A stretch of 42,476 nucleotides of DNA from Bacteroidota bacterium. Its GTDB lineage: Bacteria; Bacteroidota; Bacteroidia; Bacteroidales; FEN-979. Location: assembly GCA_016868575.1 (NCBI GenBank), contig VGGL01000013.1:1-42476 (forward strand), in the 5' to 3' direction. Below the pieces are notes generated by a model. That model searched no databases, was not told where the DNA came from, and worked only from the letters and a program-made list of their open reading frames with translations. The position numbers and the translations under genes are program-made. Below are positions 8,666 through 40,100 of this stretch, piece after piece. Every line of letters begins with the position of its first letter. Position 1 is the first letter of the stretch.

Positions 8666-10144
8666 ATGAATCCCGTGCAGAAACAATTGAAAGAAATCCT
8701 GGAATTGTCTTTGGTTCTTGAAATCAAAGGGAAACCCGACATAGTTATCAGCGAGATTACTGCTGACTCAAGGAAGGTTACCCCAGGCAGTCTTTTCATT
8801 GCAACACGGGGAACTCAGACGGATGGGCACAACTTCATCGAGCAGGCCATCACCCAAGGCGCTGTTGCCATCATCGCTGAAGTTTTACCATCCAACCTGA
8901 AGAAAGCCATCTGCTATGTACAGGTTGCTGATTCCACCCTTTTCCTCGGATATGTGGCTTGCCGGTTTTTCGACAATCCTTCTGCCAAACTGCGTTTGAC
9001 AGGCATTACTGGGACAAACGGAAAAACAACCACTGTTACATTGCTCTACCAGTTGTTCCGGAACCTGGGATATAGCTGTGGAATGATCAGCACGATCCGG
9101 AATGAAGTCAACGGAGAGATCCTTACTGCCACCCATACCACTCCGGATGCCATCAGCCTGAACCGGTTGCTGGCGATGATGGTGGAAAAAGGTTGCGACT
9201 ATTGTTTCATGGAAGTCAGTTCCCATGCGGTTGTTCAGCATCGTATCACCGGACTAACCTACGCTGCCGGCGTTTTCTCAAACATCACCCATGATCATCT
9301 CGATTATCACGGAACTTTCGCAGAATACCTGAAAGCTAAAAAAGGATTCTTCGATCAACTTCCGCAGACTGCCGTTGCCATCAGCAACAAGGATGACCGG
9401 AATGGCGAAGTGATGCTGCAAAACACCCGGGCTGCCAGGAAGTTTTACAGCCTGCAGTCGATGGCAGACTTCAATGGACGGATACTGGAAAACAGCCTGA
9501 ATGGCCTGCATATGAGTGTGGATGGTTTCGAGGTCTGGTTCCAGCTTATCGGAGAATTCAATGCCTACAATATCCTGGCGGCATACACCACCGCCATTTG
9601 TCTTGGGATGGAAAAGGTTGAGGTCCTTCAGGGATTAAGCAGATGTGAGCCGGTGGCAGGCCGTTTCAACCAGGTTCGGTCGGATCAAGACGTTACGGCT
9701 ATTGTTGATTATGCCCATACGCCTGATGCCATTGAGAATGTACTGGAGACGATCGTTTCCCTGAGAACGGCTGGAGTGCAGATCATCACGGTGGTGGGAG
9801 CCGGGGGGAACAGGGATCCCTTCAAGCGGCCGGTAATGGCCAGGACTGCCAGCCGGTTAAGCGACAGGGTGATCCTTACATCCGACAACCCGCGCGATGA
9901 AGATCCCGATCAGATCATCGAAGAGATGAAAAAAGGTATCGAATTCCCTGATCAGCTGAAAGTGATCACCATCACCAACCGGAAAGAGGCCATTAAAGCG
10001 GCCTGTGCATTTGCCAGGCCCGGCGACATCATTGCTATCCTTGGAAAGGGGCATGAGAACTACCAGGAGATTAAAGGGATCAGACATCATTTTGATGATC
10101 TGGAAATTGTTCGTGAGTTGTTATCCGTCACGCCAATAACATAA
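8666..10144 (+). CDS. murE: UDP-N-acetylmuramoyl-tripeptide synthetase (meso-DAP type)
   Basis: [22 protein letters not shown]-binding motif; [11 protein letters not shown] (DNPR motif of meso-DAP-adding enzymes). Confidence 0.96.
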
Positions 10145-10155
10145 AAGCAACGTCT

Positions 10156-11409
10156 ATGCTGTACCATCTCTTTACCTATCTCGATAAAGTGTTCGATGTG
10201 CCGGGCGCCGGGATGTTCCAGTACATCTCCTTCCGTGCTCTCGGGGCAGTGATCACCTCCCTCTTCATCTCCATGATCATTGGACACCGGTTGATCCGTC
10301 TGCTGAAAAGCAAACAGGTAGGAGAAGAGATTCGCGACCTGGGACTGGAAGGCCAGCAAGCCAAGAAAGGAACCCCAACGATGGGAGGCCTGATTATCCT
10401 GGCGGCTATTCTTATTCCAACGCTGCTTTTTGCCAAGCTCAATAATATCTATATCATCCTTATCCTGGTGTCGACTGTGTGGCTGGGATTGATCGGTTTT
10501 CTGGATGACTACATCAAAGTATTCAGGAAAAACAAGAAAGGGCTGGCCGGGAGGTTCAAAATCATCGGGCAGGTTGGATTGGGAATCATCGTCGGAACTA
10601 CCATGTTCTTCAGCGACGATATTGTGATCCGGCAACGAACATCATCTGCGGCAGTGGTTAGAACATCAGAGGTTTTCAACAACGAAGGAGCTCAACAAAA
10701 GTCGACCTTGTTCACACCCACTTCTTCCAAATCGACAAAAACAACGATACCCTTCTTTAAAAACAATGAATTCGATTACGCCATCCTGCTGAAATGGATG
10801 GGCAATGATTACGCAAAATTTGCATGGATCGTGTTCATCCCGATTGTGATCCTGATCATCATTGCCGTTTCCAACGGAGCCAACCTCACGGATGGGATTG
10901 ATGGCCTGGCGACAGGGGTATCCGCCATTATCGGTATCACGCTTGGCATCCTGGCTTATGTCTCCGGCAACATCGTCTTCGCCAGCTACCTGAACATCAT
11001 GTATATCCCTGATACCGGCGAGTTGGCCATTTATATCAGCGCTTTCGTCGGAGCCTGTATTGGGTTTCTCTGGTACAATGCTTACCCGGCACAGGTATTC
11101 ATGGGAGACACGGGCAGCCTGGCTCTTGGCGGCATCATTGCCGTGTTTGCCATCATGATCCGCAAGGAGTTCCTGATCCCCTTGCTCTGCGGCATTTTTC
11201 TCATTGAAAATCTGTCAGTGCTCTTACAGGTCAGCTACTTCAAATTCACCAGAAAAAGATTCGGCGAAGGACGGCGGATATTCAAGATGTCCCCGCTACA
11301 TCATCACTATCAGATACTGGGATATCATGAGTCCAAGATCGTTCTGCGATTTCTGATAGTCGGGATCATGCTGGCCATTATGACGATCATCACACTAAAA
11401 ATAAGATAA
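10156..11409 (+). CDS. mraY: Phospho-N-acetylmuramoyl-pentapeptide-transferase
   Basis: [57 protein letters not shown]. Confidence 0.97.
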
Positions 11410-11978
11410 TGAATCAGAATCCAAAACATATGACATTTGATTCGCTGGCTTTACAAGGCAAAACACGCATCCCCAGGTCACTGGCTGCTGTCATGGAAGA
11501 CAAGCTCACTGAACTCCGGAAAACCACCATCCGGGAGAGTTTCTCCAACATGCGGAATACACCGCACAGACTGGAATTTGTTGCAAATATTCACGGCATC
11601 GAATTCCTCAATGATTCACGTGCTTCCAGCCTGAATTCAACCTGGTTCGCCCTCGAAAGCATGAACAAGCCGTTGATCTGGATTGCAGGTGGAAGTGGAA
11701 ATAAAGAGGACTTTATCGGATTGGCGGAGTTGATTAAAAAGAAAGTGAAAGCCATTATTTGCATTGGGGATGACCGGAAGGAATTTTCAGATTTTCTTCG
11801 AAACATGGCCCGGAACGTATATGAAGCCGAAACCTTGCAAGAGGCTGTGGAAAGCGCCTACGACCTGGGCCAGAAAGGGGATGTTGTTTTGTTCTCTCCA
11901 GGTTGTCCAAGTTTTGATATGTTCAAGGATTTTGTTGAAAGGGGTGAAACATACCGGCGTATGGTTAAAAGCTTATAA
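11409..11978 (+). CDS. murD: Truncated MurD: C-terminal (ligand-binding) Mur-ligase domain only; N-terminal and central ATPase domains absent
   Basis: HRLEFVANIHGIEFLNDSRASSLNSTWFALES...WIAGGSGNKEDF...VLFSPGCPSFDMFKDFVERGETYRRMVKSL matches the MurD C-domain; only 189 aa; begins with 1-nt overlap on mraY stop. Confidence 0.85.
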   Translation: MNQNPKHMTFDSLALQGKTRIPRSLAAVMEDKLTELRKTTIRESFSNMRNTPHRLEFVANIHGIEFLNDSRASSLNSTWFALESMNKPLIWIAGGSGNKEDFIGLAELIKKKVKAIICIGDDRKEFSDFLRNMARNVYEAETLQEAVESAYDLGQKGDVVLFSPGCPSFDMFKDFVERGETYRRMVKSL

Positions 11979-12017: not shown

Positions 12018-13211
12018 ATGCTGCGTTATATCAGGAATATCCAGGGTGATAAAGTGATCTGGGGTATCGTCATCATTTTATCGGTTTTGAGTCTGCTCAC
12101 TGTTTACAGCGCTACCGGGTCGCTGGCCTATGCCAAAAATGATGGCAATACAGAGTATTATCTCATCAAGCAACTGATTGTGGTTGTGGCGGGGTTGCTT
12201 TTCATGTATCTGATACACTTGGTCAAATACACCTGGTACAGCAAAGGCTACATCATTTTTGTAACCTTCCTTCTCAGCATTGGATTCCTTGCTGCCCTGA
12301 TTATCTATGGATTGACAATCAACAGTGCAGCAAGGTGGTTACCCATTCCCTTGACAGGGTTGACTTTTCAGCCGTCAGATTTGGCAAAACCGGCACTGGT
12401 GATGTTTTTAGCAAAACTGCTGGCAAACAACCAGGATAAGATCAAATCGTTGAAGATCTACCTTTTCATGCTGATCCCCATTATCCTGATCTGCCTCCTG
12501 ATATTTCCTTCCAACTTTTCTACTGCTGCTATTTTGTTTGTTTCCTGTCTGGTGCTTATCTGGATTGCCCGTGCCCGGATGGCACATATCGGGCTAACGA
12601 TTCTTGCCGGAGCTGCTTTCGGAGTGATCCTGTTCTTTCTGATCATGCATTACCCCAAGGCTATTCCCAGGGGTGAAACATGGAAGCACCGCATTGAAGT
12701 CTGGCTCGATGATTCGAAAGCTGATCCCGAAGCCGATTATCAGATCACCCAGGCAAAGATTGCAATCGCATCCGGCGGCTTCTTCGGTAAAACGCCGGGA
12801 AAAAGCACCCAACGGAATTTCCTGCCTCACCCCTATTCCGACTTCATCTTTGCTTTCATCATTGAAGAGTACGGGCTGGTTGGAGGCGGCTTTGTCACCC
12901 TGCTCTACCTTACCCTCTTCTTCCGGATTGTCAGAATCGCCAACCGATGCAAGGGTAATTTCGGATCTTTTCTATCCTTCGGTATCGGGTTTCTGATCGT
13001 CTTCCAGGCATTGATCAACATGGGTGTTGCTGTTGGACTGTTACCTGTGACCGGCCAGACGCTGCCATTGGTAAGCATGGGGGGGACTTCACTCTGGTTC
13101 ACGGCCATCTCTATCGGGATTATCCTTAGTGTAAGCAGGGGTCTTGAGATTGAAGCACAGGAAGAAAAAACCTCTTTCAAGATCTCCGATAATTTATATG
13201 CGACTGTTTAA
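12018..13211 (+). CDS. ftsW: SEDS peptidoglycan glycosyltransferase FtsW
   Basis: Polytopic; PSDLAKPALVMFLAKLL, HPYSDFIFAFIIEEYGLVGG, LPLVSMGGTSLW. Confidence 0.95.
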   Translation: MLRYIRNIQGDKVIWGIVIILSVLSLLTVYSATGSLAYAKNDGNTEYYLIKQLIVVVAGLLFMYLIHLVKYTWYSKGYIIFVTFLLSIGFLAALIIYGLTINSAARWLPIPLTGLTFQPSDLAKPALVMFLAKLLANNQDKIKSLKIYLFMLIPIILICLLIFPSNFSTAAILFVSCLVLIWIARARMAHIGLTILAGAAFGVILFFLIMHYPKAIPRGETWKHRIEVWLDDSKADPEADYQITQAKIAIASGGFFGKTPGKSTQRNFLPHPYSDFIFAFIIEEYGLVGGGFVTLLYLTLFFRIVRIANRCKGNFGSFLSFGIGFLIVFQALINMGVAVGLLPVTGQTLPLVSMGGTSLWFTAISIGIILSVSRGLEIEAQEEKTSFKISDNLYATV

Positions 13212-13229: not shown

Positions 13230-14330
13230 ATGAAGGCAATCATCAGTGGAGGCGGCACCGGAGGTCATGTTTTTCCAGCCATTGCGATTGCCAACGCACT
13301 CCGGAAGAAGTATCCTGATGCGGCCATTCAGTTTATCGGGGCCACAGGCAAGATGGAAATGGAAAAAGTGCCGGCAGCCGGCTATCCTATCGAAGGGCTC
13401 TGGATCAGCGGTTTCCATCGAAGGATCACGGTGAAAAACCTGTTGTTCCCATTAAAGGTTTTCCTGAGCCTAAGGAAAGCTTCCAAAATCATCAAGACCT
13501 TTCAGCCCGATGTAGTGATCGGTTCAGGAGGATACGCCAGCGGGCCAACCCTCAGAATGGCTGCTAAATCGGGCATCCCAACTGTGATCCTGGAGCAAAA
13601 TTCCTATCCCGGAATGACCAATAAGCTGCTGGCTGATGCTGTCGACCGTATCTGTGTGGCTTATGAAGGGATGGAAGGCTATTTTCCGGCTGAAAAAATT
13701 GTGTTGACCGGTAATCCGATCCGGCAGGACATCACTGACCCAACCGATAAAAAATCCGAGGCGTATATATTTTTCGGTATCGACCCTTCGCTGAAAACAG
13801 TTCTTGTCATTGGCGGAAGCCTGGGAGCCCGTACCATTAACGAAAGCATTGCTTTTAACCTGAGCTTCTTCGGGGATAATAACATCCAGGTCATCTGGCA
13901 AACCGGAAAGATGTACCACCGGGAAGCCCGGGCCAGCGTTGCAGGAAAAAGCAAGGGCAACATCCGGATATTTGATTTCATACAGCGCATGGATCTGGCT
14001 TACGCCTGTGCAGATGTGATCATCTCCAGAGCTGGAGCCATCGCTATCTCCGAGCTTTGCATGGCTGGGAAACCGGCTATTCTTATCCCCTCCCCCAGTG
14101 TGGTCGCTGACCATCAAACAAAAAATGTGAAGGCCCTGGTAGAGCGAAATGCAGCGATTTATTTGAAAGATCATGAAGCCAGGGAAAGGATCAGCCAGGT
14201 CATCCAGGAACTCTTCCAAAACCCTGAACGGATGACCATGTTTGGCAACAACATCCGGGAAATGGCCAAACCTGATGCAGCCGACAGGATCGTTGAAGTG
14301 ATCGTCTCCCTGATTCAGCATAACCAGTGA
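13230..14330 (+). CDS. murG: UDP-N-acetylglucosamine--N-acetylmuramyl-(pentapeptide) pyrophosphoryl-undecaprenol GlcNAc transferase
   Basis: ISGGGTGGHVFPAIAIANAL, GSGGYASGPTLRMA, LEQNSYPGMTNK. Confidence 0.97.
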   Translation: MKAIISGGGTGGHVFPAIAIANALRKKYPDAAIQFIGATGKMEMEKVPAAGYPIEGLWISGFHRRITVKNLLFPLKVFLSLRKASKIIKTFQPDVVIGSGGYASGPTLRMAAKSGIPTVILEQNSYPGMTNKLLADAVDRICVAYEGMEGYFPAEKIVLTGNPIRQDITDPTDKKSEAYIFFGIDPSLKTVLVIGGSLGARTINESIAFNLSFFGDNNIQVIWQTGKMYHREARASVAGKSKGNIRIFDFIQRMDLAYACADVIISRAGAIAISELCMAGKPAILIPSPSVVADHQTKNVKALVERNAAIYLKDHEARERISQVIQELFQNPERMTMFGNNIREMAKPDAADRIVEVIVSLIQHNQ

Positions 14331-14336
14331 CCAGAG

Positions 14337-15728
14337 ATGTTTAAAACAACGCTCCATACAGTCTATTTTCTTGGTATCGGAGGCATCGGTATGAGCGCCC
14401 TGGCTCAGTATTTTTTAGCCCGGGGAATCAGGGTGTATGGCTATGACCTGACAGAGACAGAACTGACCCGATCGTTGATCAATCAAGGCTGTGATATCCA
14501 TTATCAGCCAGATATTTCGGCCATACCAGTGATTCCTGATCTGGTGATCTACACACCTGCCATACCCCAGGATCATCCGGAGTTGGTGTTCTTGCGTGAA
14601 CAACACGCCAATATCATGAAGCGATCGGAAGTCCTCGGAGAGATCACCCGTCCATATCAAACCATTGCCATTGCCGGGAGTCATGGAAAAACCACCGTGA
14701 CAACCCTCACGGCATTTTTATTTCGGGAAGCCGGAAGACACATGACTGCCTTCCTTGGCGGGATATCTAAAAATTATCAATCGAATCTGATCACCCATGA
14801 AGGGAAAGGGGCTCCCGTGATGATCGTGGAGGCGGATGAGTTTGATCGTTCGTTCCTCAAGCTGGAGCCTTATCTGGCTGTTGTCACATCGGCTGATGCA
14901 GATCATCTCGATATTTACGGGACAGCTGATGCGGTAAAAGAGACCTTTGGCGCATTTATCCGAAAGATCAAACCAGGCGGTCACCTGGTAATCAAAAAAA
15001 ACCTATGCATACCGGTTGATCCGGAACAACCTATCCATGTTTCAACCTATTCCCTCGAAAGCGAGGCTGACTATTATGCCAGAAACCTCCGGATCATCAA
15101 TGAAAAATATGTTTTTGACCTGGCCACGCCACACCGGATAATCCAGGATATTGACCTCGGATTACCTGGTTTATTTAATGTTGAAAATGCCGTTGCTGCC
15201 ATCGCCATTGCCCTGATCGCCGGTATAAGCATCAAACAAATTCGTCAGTCGCTCAAGACTTTTTCCGGCGTCAAAAGGAGATTTGACTATCATGTCCGCA
15301 ACCAGAAACACATCTACCTTGATGATTATGCCCATCATCCGGAAGAATTGAAAGCATGCATCCTGGCTGTAAAGGAATTGCATGGTGACCGGAAGATCAC
15401 CGGAATCTTCCAGCCTCACCTGTTCAGTCGTACCCGTGATCTGGCAGATGGATTTGTTCAAAGCCTGGAACTGCTGGACGATATCATCCTGCTTGATATA
15501 TATCCCGCCAGGGAATTGCCGATCGAGGGGATTACTTCGCAATGGCTGCTGAGCCAAATAAAGAAAGAAGAGAAGATATGTTGTTCGATGGAAAAGGTCA
15601 TGGATCTGATCAAAGTGAAGAATCCCGACTTGCTGCTGACATTGGGCGCCGGAGATATTGATCAACTCGTTGAGCCGATAACAAGGATGCTTAAAGGTGA
15701 CGATGATGAAATTAACAATGGCTGTTAG
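14337..15728 (+). CDS. murC: UDP-N-acetylmuramate--L-alanine ligase
   Basis: FLGIGGIGMSALAQYF, IAGSHGKTTVTTLTAF, DDYAHHPEELKA, FQPHLFSRT. Confidence 0.97.
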   Translation: MFKTTLHTVYFLGIGGIGMSALAQYFLARGIRVYGYDLTETELTRSLINQGCDIHYQPDISAIPVIPDLVIYTPAIPQDHPELVFLREQHANIMKRSEVLGEITRPYQTIAIAGSHGKTTVTTLTAFLFREAGRHMTAFLGGISKNYQSNLITHEGKGAPVMIVEADEFDRSFLKLEPYLAVVTSADADHLDIYGTADAVKETFGAFIRKIKPGGHLVIKKNLCIPVDPEQPIHVSTYSLESEADYYARNLRIINEKYVFDLATPHRIIQDIDLGLPGLFNVENAVAAIAIALIAGISIKQIRQSLKTFSGVKRRFDYHVRNQKHIYLDDYAHHPEELKACILAVKELHGDRKITGIFQPHLFSRTRDLADGFVQSLELLDDIILLDIYPARELPIEGITSQWLLSQIKKEEKICCSMEKVMDLIKVKNPDLLLTLGAGDIDQLVEPITRMLKGDDDEINNGC

Positions 15729-36430: not shown

Positions 36431-36563
36431 TCTACAACGTACAATTGTAAATGTACAATTGGATTGACAATGGACAATTTCCAATTTTATCGAGCAACGA
36501 ACAACGGGCAACGAACAACTGCTTGCTGATTGCTGATACCTGTTCACTGAGCAACCTTATCTG
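36431..36563. repeat. 19 consecutive degenerate heptamers in one 7-bp phase, ending at the stop codon of the C25 peptidase
   Basis: Minus: CAGATAA GGTTGCT CAGTGAA CAGGTAT CAGCAAT CAGCAAG CAGTTGT TCGTTGC CCGTTGT TCGTTGC TCGATAA AATTGGA AATTGTC CATTGTC AATCCAA TTGTACA TTTACAA TTGTACG TTGTAGA; exact 12-mer GCAACGAACAAC at 36494 and 36508. Confidence 0.85.
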
Positions 36564-39500
36564 CTGATGATCAGCTTCTTCACGTACGTCTGGCGGGTTG
36601 TTTTAACGACCAGGAAATAAATACCGTCGGGTTCGTTAGCAAGATCCAGCGAGATCGAGGTATTACCTGAAACAGCTATATCATGTTTGGATAACACCTC
36701 CTTGCCCAGGATGTTGGAAACCATTACCTGGGCCGGATCATCCCTCATGGAGAAAAGGGCCAGGTGGAAGATTCCGGAACCCGGGTTGGGGTACACGTCG
36801 CATTTTTCAGTTTCACTTAAATTTGGTACTCCGGTACAAGTCGTAAAGGTAATATTGATCGATCCAGTCGAAGTACAGCCACTAAGGGTCACTTCCACCG
36901 AAGGGGTTGTGGTTCCGTAGCCAACACCGGAAGAATCCACGACAATGGTCTGCGTGGTGGCGCCGGTGGACCAGAGATAGGTTGCTCCGGGATTTCCGGC
37001 ATCCAATGGGATCGATTCAAAATCGCAAAGGATTGTATCATTGCCCAGTGAAACAACCGGGAGCGGATTCACTGTCACATCCAATGGGTCGGAGAAAAGG
37101 CTTTCGTTGCAGTCATTCACCGACTTCACTGAAATGGCAGCATTTCCCGACCATGTAAGGCTCCAGTAAACCGTGGAAGTATTGCTGCTACCGGTAATGA
37201 TACCGGCGAAGGGGGGTTCGATCTGCCATAAATAGCTGGTAGCGTTGGGAACCGGATCGGTAGTATAATCAGAAGTTTGCACACCCTGACACAGAGCAGT
37301 CGGCCCGGTGGGTTGATTAGGAACAGCCGGGAAGGGTCTGAGATGGATGTTCAAATCGGGAGAAAATGATCCTGGACCGCAACCGTTCACCGCTTGTACC
37401 TTTAATGTGGCATATCCTGTCCATCCAGCGTTCCAGGTAATCGTGGCTGAAGTATCTGCAGCAACCATCACGCCAGCCGCGGGTGGGTCGAAGACCCAGT
37501 TATAGGAAGTGGCGTCCGGGATGGATGGAATTGTATACATGGTTGGACTGTTGTTCTCACAAAGTAAGGTATCACCTTCAGGTATACCTGGGGTAGCAGC
37601 AGGAGCTGTAACATGGATATATGATACTTTGGTAAGCGAATTCGTATAGATTGCGTTTGATACAGTCAGGGTTACGTTGTAATTACCGGTTGCCGGATAG
37701 ACGATGTTTTGAGGATTTTGAACGGTTGAGGAAGAAGGATTTCCGCCTGGAAATGACCAGGTCCATGATGTTGGGGTACCGCTTGAAAGATCGGTAAAAT
37801 TAACCCCCTGACCGATGCAGATATTCGTCATGTTGGCTGTAAAATCGGGAATCGGACCGCCGGGAGGAACAACCTGTACCAGTGCTGTATACCGGAAGTA
37901 GTTTTGTTTTGTTACCGTCACGCGCATAAATTGTCCTGTTGTCAGTGTTCCTGGGATGGTGATGGTCAAAGGAGCGCCGGTACCGGTTCCGGTGCCGAGA
38001 ATTTCGTCATTATAGGTAAGTGCAATCAGCGCACCCACATTTGCAGTGACCTGAAAGGAGGTTGAACCGGAAGGGATTGTTGAGTTATGAACAACCGTGA
38101 GGTTCTGTGGCACTTCGGAATAAACGGTCATGAAGGCATCGCCATGGTGATGGTACAGGTGATAGGTTACCTGTTTATTGCTGGTGTTGTAAGGCCAGTT
38201 GGATTGTTGAAGAAAATATTTTCCTGCAGCATTTCCGAAACAGGGCATCACTCCCCGGGAGGCCGGGGTTGTTCCATAACTGGGCATGAAGTTGGTCCAG
38301 AGGTTGTCCATCACTCCCCAGACATAAGTATCATTCACAAATGAATATGAAACTTCGGAGGCCGCAATCAGCCCCAAGGCGCCGGAATTATTGCCATTCT
38401 TTGTGTAACGGTGGAATTTCTCCGTGAAACATTCACTGCTGTTATTGTACTTTCCGGTAAGGCAGTTGATTGAAAAGATGAACGTAAGGTTTGTATTCGT
38501 GCAGCCGTCGATATTTGAATTTGAATAAGCCGGTTCACCCCATCCTGTGGTGCTTCCATGATCCCGGTGCATCAGTACGAAGGCACCGGAATTGATGGCG
38601 TTGTTGATCCCTGTAGCATTTCCTCCCGTCCAACAACAAGGCATCTCCTGAGGAGTAGCCGGGATATACCCCAAACCACTCGGCCCAAAGAAACTCAGTA
38701 TGGTGGATGTATTTGTAGCCGTTGACCAAGGTGCTGTGGATGGATTTCCGGAATAAACTTCATTGATCCTTGTCGGGTCTTTCCCCTGGACATATTTCCA
38801 GAATCCGCCAACCGTTTCCGAGCAAATCTGAAACCAGCGCTCTGTTTGCCAACCCAATGCGGTGATCGGGTGCTGGTAGAAATAAGAGGATGCTGGTGGT
38901 TGCCGTTCGTAGTTCAGGAATTTTGTGCACATCACCTGGAGTTGGGTGGCATTGTTTGCCGTGATCCTGGCCAGACATACATCCGGGAGATGGTCATTAT
39001 CCACATCTGCATAGATATTATCTGAAACGCAATAGCTGTTGTAGATTGGCGAAACGACGCTGTTTGCTGCATTGGTACCATAATCGCCAAGAAGCAATAC
39101 TGCTGCCGGCGGTGGCGTCCAGGTATTGTAGGCATTGTTGATGTAATTCTCAATGGCGGTTGTGGTATTTCCACCCACTTCTGTAAGTGTTTTTACAAAA
39201 GTGGATATCCCTTGTTGCTGGCGGAAACGACGGATGGAATCGGCCCATTGGGTAAAGGCGGCATCCGTCGGGGTGATAATCAGGTATTCACACCCTGGAA
39301 CATCGGTCGGCTCCTGGATTCTGGCATCATAATCAATGGAAGGAAGAGAAGAAAAATTTATCAACGCATCTGACATGATCGGATCCCACCAGCGACTACG
39401 TAGCCGGTCATCACCAAATCGATCACTCCCTCCTTCAAACCGGATATCCACATCAAGATCACGGAATATCCGGAGTTCCTTTGTAACCGGATTGTACTGA

Positions 39501-40033
39501 AATGGCGTTATCCCCAGAACAACAGTTTGCACACCCCGGATATTCTTGACTTCCGACAGAATGACCGGTTGTTCCGGATAAAAAGCATTCCGGTTATAGA
39601 TGGCTTCATTTTTATTGTATTCAAGCGGACCTGTATCAGTATCCAATGGGATACGGGGAGCTGGCGCGATATTGATCCCCTGGATGATTTCCACCCGTGT
39701 CATCTGAATATCCAAAATTGGCGTAGCCCCGTTCGGAATGGCAATAAAACGTGAATAGCCCGGAAGGTTCGGCGCTCCCTGTTCATTATACAGGAAGGCT
39801 CCATCCAGACCAATATTCTTCATTTGTTCCCCATTGATCAAGATGTCATCAATCCGGAATTGCCGGATTGAATAATTGATATCCACCCGATCGGCATTGC
39901 TCGTGGCAACCGAAAAACCCTGGCCATATAAGGCATCCGGGTATTCAACCTGCTGGGCAGGCAGGATCAATCCGATAAAAAGAAAACTCACCCCAAGGAT
40001 AAGTCCCCATACAAAGCGATAAGTGTTTTTCAT
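36557..40033 (-). CDS. Gingipain-like C25 cysteine peptidase with PKD/Ig-like modules and T9SS type A-like sorting domain
   Basis: EYLIITPTDAAFTQWADSIRRFRQQQGISTFVKTLTE; catalytic-like FVLMHRDHGSTTGW and FIFSINCLTGKY; PKD TWSFPGGNPSSSTVQNPQNIVYPATGNYNVTLTVSN; C-term CDVYPNPGSGIFHLAL...YVKKLIISR; start at MKNTYRF preferred. Confidence 0.9.
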   Translation of the reverse strand: MKNTYRFVWGLILGVSFLFIGLILPAQQVEYPDALYGQGFSVATSNADRVDINYSIRQFRIDDILINGEQMKNIGLDGAFLYNEQGAPNLPGYSRFIAIPNGATPILDIQMTRVEIIQGINIAPAPRIPLDTDTGPLEYNKNEAIYNRNAFYPEQPVILSEVKNIRGVQTVVLGITPFQYNPVTKELRIFRDLDVDIRFEGGSDRFGDDRLRSRWWDPIMSDALINFSSLPSIDYDARIQEPTDVPGCEYLIITPTDAAFTQWADSIRRFRQQQGISTFVKTLTEVGGNTTTAIENYINNAYNTWTPPPAAVLLLGDYGTNAANSVVSPIYNSYCVSDNIYADVDNDHLPDVCLARITANNATQLQVMCTKFLNYERQPPASSYFYQHPITALGWQTERWFQICSETVGGFWKYVQGKDPTRINEVYSGNPSTAPWSTATNTSTILSFFGPSGLGYIPATPQEMPCCWTGGNATGINNAINSGAFVLMHRDHGSTTGWGEPAYSNSNIDGCTNTNLTFIFSINCLTGKYNNSSECFTEKFHRYTKNGNNSGALGLIAASEVSYSFVNDTYVWGVMDNLWTNFMPSYGTTPASRGVMPCFGNAAGKYFLQQSNWPYNTSNKQVTYHLYHHHGDAFMTVYSEVPQNLTVVHNSTIPSGSTSFQVTANVGALIALTYNDEILGTGTGTGAPLTITIPGTLTTGQFMRVTVTKQNYFRYTALVQVVPPGGPIPDFTANMTNICIGQGVNFTDLSSGTPTSWTWSFPGGNPSSSTVQNPQNIVYPATGNYNVTLTVSNAIYTNSLTKVSYIHVTAPAATPGIPEGDTLLCENNSPTMYTIPSIPDATSYNWVFDPPAAGVMVAADTSATITWNAGWTGYATLKVQAVNGCGPGSFSPDLNIHLRPFPAVPNQPTGPTALCQGVQTSDYTTDPVPNATSYLWQIEPPFAGIITGSSNTSTVYWSLTWSGNAAISVKSVNDCNESLFSDPLDVTVNPLPVVSLGNDTILCDFESIPLDAGNPGATYLWSTGATTQTIVVDSSGVGYGTTTPSVEVTLSGCTSTGSINITFTTCTGVPNLSETEKCDVYPNPGSGIFHLALFSMRDDPAQVMVSNILGKEVLSKHDIAVSGNTSISLDLANEPDGIYFLVVKTTRQTYVKKLIISR

Positions 40034-40100
40034 ATGCTGGTATTGTATGATTTTCCAGCTACGAAGGTACAAAAAATCAAGACAATAAAGAACGATTGGA

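Follow-up and report, generated by a model that had tools for sequence, protein, structure and literature searches.

A stand-alone C-terminal domain of MurD at the murD position of the Bacteroidota dcw cluster and its repeated emergence in relatives with a predicted MurD2/MurL pair

The window, by which we mean the whole stretch of 42,476 nucleotides analysed here, is a contig of a 2.84-Mb draft genome of a Bacteroidota bacterium (224 contigs, 94% complete). It carries a dcw cluster composed of mraZ, mraW, an ftsL-like gene (FtsL_2 family), ftsI, murE, mraY, a short ORF that we term MurD-C, ftsW, murG, murC, ftsA and ftsZ. Both the FtsL_2 family and a C25 peptidase with a Por secretion tail, also encoded in the window, indicate Bacteroidota. 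The features at and around MurD-C are as follows:

8666..10144, + strand: murE (ORF and profile matches)
10156..11409, + strand: mraY, 417 aa, intact; its stop overlaps the MurD-C start
11409..11978, + strand: MurD-C, a stand-alone MurD C-terminal domain of 189 aa (profile matches, loci of relatives, structure model)
11430..11432, + strand: in-frame ATG within MurD-C, at the aligned position where most other short MurDs start and where full-length MurD has a conserved internal Met
11565..11900, + strand: Mur_ligase_C (PF02875) match, residues 53-164 of MurD-C (Pfam)
12018..13211, + strand: ftsW, 397 aa, intact (ORF and loci of relatives)
13230..14330, + strand: murG (sequence inspected by eye; identical position in all loci of the family)
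14337..15728, + strand: murC (ORF, profile match and loci of relatives)

The mraY stop codon (TAA, 11407-11409) overlaps the ATG of MurD-C, just as the original prediction described, and its further claim that only the last domain of MurD stands at the murD position also holds. Against the murD profile TIGR01087 the ORF scores 159.9 bits, below the cut-off of 211.95, and covers only profile positions 262-440 of 441, while Mur_ligase_C (E 4e-13) is its sole Pfam match. Neither an ATPase domain with a P-loop of the form GxxGK[ST]T nor an N-terminal UDP-binding domain is present in the ORF; at 189 aa, it is not the canonical three-domain MurD of about 450 aa. Since mraY and ftsW are intact on either side, the space between them cannot accommodate the missing part, in keeping with the earlier statement that no space remains upstream for an N-terminal portion. 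A profile search of the 94%-complete draft recovered no full MurD elsewhere in this genome. The motif changes listed earlier, such as NDSKATN to NDSRASS, are present in the ORF. For residue numbers we used an E. coli MurD sequence, with D182, K319 and K348 landing on the expected letters; published numbers are lower by one, which fits a count that omits the first Met. On this numbering the adenine contacts H267, N268 and N271 are absent or replaced in the window MurD-C, and K319, T321 and K348 are R, S and N, respectively. The ATG at 11409 has an A at -3 but that at 11430 does not, so either may be used in the window genome.

A short MurD match was found in about 39 of the 43 genomes of the window's family, and a short ORF lies between mraY and ftsW in all 20 family dcw loci inspected (in one of these, L063, mraY is split in the draft). 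We accordingly rejected an assembly artefact or deletion: inspecting the dcw loci of relatives, in line with a check that had been suggested, returned equally short ORFs at the equivalent place rather than full-length genes. A separate full-length MurD scores over the cut-off in 40 of the 43 genomes. The short MurD shares 40-43% identity with full-length MurDs at the dcw locus of two other Bacteroidota, compared to about 23-29% with the second, full-length MurD of its relatives; thus, the short form is the ancestral murD cut down and not a copy of the second MurD. In two of the loci (L056 and L068), the ORF immediately downstream of ftsW, at the place expected for murG, is 842-849 aa long and has MurC in its C-terminal half; it looks like a MurG-MurC fusion.

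The second MurD of the relatives directly follows a 459-aa gene matching the Xanthomonadales MurL (241 bits, E 1.7e-71). The MurL model was built for Xanthomonadales, with a cut-off of 700 bits, and the matches of the relatives fall below it. By this match MurL is present in 40 of the 43 family genomes, and MurI exceeds its cut-off in none of the 43. The Xanthomonas oryzae MurD2 takes L-Glu by means of E197 and R358, which correspond to D182 and K348 of E. coli MurD (PMC8788868). These two specificity positions are E and R in 16 of 16 second MurDs of the relatives, and D and K in 48 of 48 full dcw MurDs. Judging from these residues, the ligase step in the relatives has moved to a MurD2 beside MurL, with the activity predicted. 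We found no report of MurL in Bacteroidota in the open-access literature, and the two reviews consulted do not list the phylum for MurD2/MurL. In four genomes (G121:C12, G313:C16, G379:C11 and G148:C329), MurL and the second MurD match share a single open frame (885-949 aa) that, from its matches, looks like a MurL-MurD2 fusion protein.

The original prediction had placed catalysis elsewhere, by another full MurD or a MurD2/MurL-type route. This stands for the relatives; in the window's own draft neither was found. Profile searches of the drafts detected no MurL and no full MurD in the window genome or in G005 and G041. The DUF179 gene that neighbours the MurL locus is missing from the same three genomes, which suggests an assembly gap covering MurL/MurD2, and such a gap probably explains the absence from the window genome. 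Inspection of 60 of its contigs (611 kb) revealed no neighbour of the MurL locus, and the gap edges were not seen.

We then considered the whole order, in which MurL was found in 123 of 393 sampled genomes. First, among 73 MurL-bearing genomes, the dcw MurD is full in 40 and short in 29, is cut by contig ends in two and was not found in two, with the 29 short versions spanning 19 families besides that of the window. Second, among 74 genomes lacking MurL, one per family, 73 have a full dcw MurD. The exception, G057 (L180, G057:C4), is a 98%-complete genome of 10 contigs with a degenerate short dcw MurD, in which no MurL, MurI or full MurD scored over the cut-off. Third, in the 80 genomes searched for it, MurI exceeds the cut-off in 0 of 59 with MurL versus 19 of 21 without; likewise, it does so in none of the 30 tested genomes that have MurL and keep a full dcw MurD. 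The active-site residues of such full versions (L188-L215) are intact in the 28 aligned.

At least eight families contain both short and full dcw MurDs. On a tree of MraY and FtsW (85 rows), the short/full distribution needs 15 changes, 13 of them forced by supported branches, with a bootstrap range of 14-16. Unless the locus recombined internally, it is implausible that the missing two thirds were regained, so most of these changes are separate truncations. In relatives using the other enzyme pair, reduction of the dcw murD to its last domain has occurred a dozen times or more. MurL status is itself clustered on the tree and an independent-pairs test of MurL versus truncation had too few informative pairs; hence, the link between MurL and truncation rests on the counts and the biology.

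The truncations also share a boundary. Most short versions begin with a motif like M-T-L-E-x-L-A-x-Q-G, and a matching Met is found inside 44 of 48 full MurDs. We measured the excess of A at third codon positions over the seven codons after this Met, controlling for the amino acid and the codon usage of each gene. The internal-Met window ranked first of about 440 windows both in 28 genes from genomes with MurL (z 7.8) and in 20 near genes from genomes without it (z 7.1); with a window standard deviation of 1.7-2.0, the peak stands at roughly 4 standard deviations. It still ranks first with one gene per family, and the top window lies around the internal Met in 77-84% of family bootstrap draws. 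In the genes from genomes with MurL, the codons preceding the Met are also enriched. As a control, the strongest windows in MraY and FtsW fall at the first or last codons, the exception being two mid-gene FtsW windows below z 4; with its peaks at the gene's own start or that of the next gene, the measure behaves as a start detector.

Further, in genes from genomes with MurL the upstream A fraction is 0.49 at the internal Met, equal to that of true starts, versus 0.35 at other Mets. An A at -3 has a frequency of 0.69 there versus 0.37, a base that also depends on the preceding amino acid, and the RNA around the internal Met exceeds 83% of other positions in openness. Bacteroidetes initiate translation without Shine-Dalgarno sequences, with A at -3 and low structure as determinants (PMC6847099). 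Whether the full-length murD of these lineages contains an internal start, with the C-domain as a second product, is on this sequence evidence a roughly balanced call. The literature searched held no report of an internal translation start in murD. Both the recurrence of truncation and its boundary at a start-like internal Met are new beyond the original prediction.

The same boundary might arise more simply, if it marks the domain edge and a structurally conserved Met, murD having a single product and each truncation using the nearest in-frame ATG; MurD-C would still have a non-catalytic function. This is a serious possibility, though one that we doubt somewhat. The Met does sit in a conserved motif ahead of the last helices, and in 39 more distant genes from genomes lacking MurL it is present in 30 yet followed by only a weak excess of synonymous A (z 2.5), with an RNA openness of 0.58 and an upstream A fraction of 0.35, which limits the dual-product idea to the lineages with MurL and their nearer relatives. 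However, a structural Met does not predict the rank-1 synonymous A, the upstream A-richness or the RNA openness in the genes with MurL and the near genes without it, and comparable peaks in MraY and FtsW occur almost only at gene ends.

Turning to what is retained, the short versions are under purifying selection: their dN/dS is 0.06-0.16 in the eight closest pairs (deep pairs were saturated and left out), and that of MraY and FtsW in the same pairs is 0.02-0.21. The dN/dS check proposed for the domain-only ORF thus indicates that it is kept by selection. The short versions have lost several positions that are near-invariant in full MurD, among them the ATP or glutamate contacts H267, N268, N271, K319, T321 and K348. 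They retain H301, E304, N316-D317-S318, S410-P411, R425-G426 and the C-terminal Leu, together with a Trp where E. coli has E327. A first structure model (pLDDT 72) had MurD crystal structures as its best Foldseek matches, and a second, built with 70 sequences, has a compact domain after a long helix at a mean pLDDT of 85, so that the structure prediction called for earlier gave a confident MurD C-domain fold. According to model and alignment, the domain retains its predicted fold but has lost its ligand sites, and MurD-C, on its residues, cannot be a MurD ligase by itself. The suggestion that it senses D-Glu is not supported, and we rejected it, with the glutamate-contact positions K348, T321 and K319 among those lost. 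We consider that MurD-C is, with fair probability, a stand-alone non-catalytic MurD C-domain kept for a function apart from that of the ligase; the leftover domain probably has a second job.

We regard it as unlikely that MurD-C is instead a decaying remnant, in which the presence of MurD2/MurL made the dcw murD redundant and its last third is still eroding, open by chance or on account of its operon position or of translational coupling between mraY and ftsW. Relaxed catalytic residues, the strong divergence of some lineages (L175, L179 and L180) and the short gaps to both neighbours (medians of 22 and 10 nt) speak for decay; against it are the low dN/dS in close pairs, a length kept at 176-199 aa in all 50 short versions measured, structural positions near-invariant over many origins, and the loss of MurD-C in at most two of 73 genomes with MurL, both drafts. 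A split ligase, with N-terminal and ATPase domains encoded elsewhere and acting in trans with MurD-C, is highly improbable and was rejected: the C-domain fold is kept, but the draft genome contains no N-terminal MurD fragment, its Mur_ligase_M matches being other Mur-type ligases (MurE, MurC, MurF, an Mpl-like protein, FolC and cyanophycin synthetase were inspected) apart from an 847-aa ORF, K319, T321 and K348 are lost in many short versions, and the relatives own a complete MurD2.

Returning to a MurD-C with a function of its own, we propose the following course. In keeping with established biochemistry, MurD2 would add L-Glu and MurL would epimerise the product; with this pair doing the ligase step, the dcw MurD would no longer be needed as a ligase. 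In MurL/MurD2-like lineages without MurI, the dcw murD has often lost its N-terminal two thirds, at nearly one boundary. Full-length murD would already yield a separate C-domain protein by translation from the internal Met, and the boundary would be fixed because this start pre-exists. We suggest tentatively, and with slightly less than balanced confidence, that murD in this part of the Bacteroidota is a two-product gene, encoding the ligase and a C-domain protein of about 20 kDa with its own needed role, which has been stripped repeatedly to the inner gene. Release of the ligase by MurD2/MurL would thereby have brought to light a conserved factor of the cell wall or of division that had been hidden within murD. 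In other bacteria, MreB, MraY and MurG are binding partners of Mur ligases (PMC4929429). MurD-C might be a subunit that provides structure or docking for the wall-precursor proteins (MraY, MurG, MreB and FtsW), rather than an enzyme or a glutamate sensor, a suggestion that we make with less confidence.

MurD is the textbook case of a single-function enzyme and a drug target. MurD-C shares with it the dcw position and a homologous C-terminal domain and fold, but lacks the N-terminal and ATPase domains and, in the window copy, N268, N271, K319, T321 and K348. As with MurD2/MurL of X. oryzae (XOO_1320/XOO_1319; PMC8788868), the relatives have MurL beside an E/R-type MurD and no MurI, whereas a dcw MurD reduced to its C-domain is not described for that pathway; indeed, we found no report of a C-domain-only MurD in the open-access literature. 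Beyond the four classical ligations, MurT/GatD is a system in which a Mur ligase relative acts in lipid II amidation. MurT and MurD-C both represent a Mur ligase fold put to another purpose; however, MurT keeps its ATPase domain and is catalytic, unlike MurD-C, which has no GatD-like gene beside it. The predicted second product of murD resembles those of genes with internal in-frame starts (N-terminal proteoforms), with the difference that the short form of murD has turned into a separate gene time after time. Repeated loss of the catalytic part with one domain kept separates two functions that are inseparable where MurD is essential, and it suggests that a domain of a Mur ligase has a role other than catalysis. 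The predicted MurD2/MurL pathway is also extended to much of an order of Bacteroidota, in which genomes have either MurI or MurL, almost without exception.

The window genome has some further features of note. It encodes a stand-alone MurF in addition to the 847-aa Mur ligase ORF (G000:C43:9146-9697 and G000:C1:63682-64242), the latter being probably a MurF-Alr fusion. Its cyanophycin synthetase-like gene (L005, G000:C98) is followed by a cyanophycinase-like gene. Within the window itself, positions 36557-40072 on the minus strand encode a C25-type peptidase of 1171 aa with PKD domains and a Por secretion tail.
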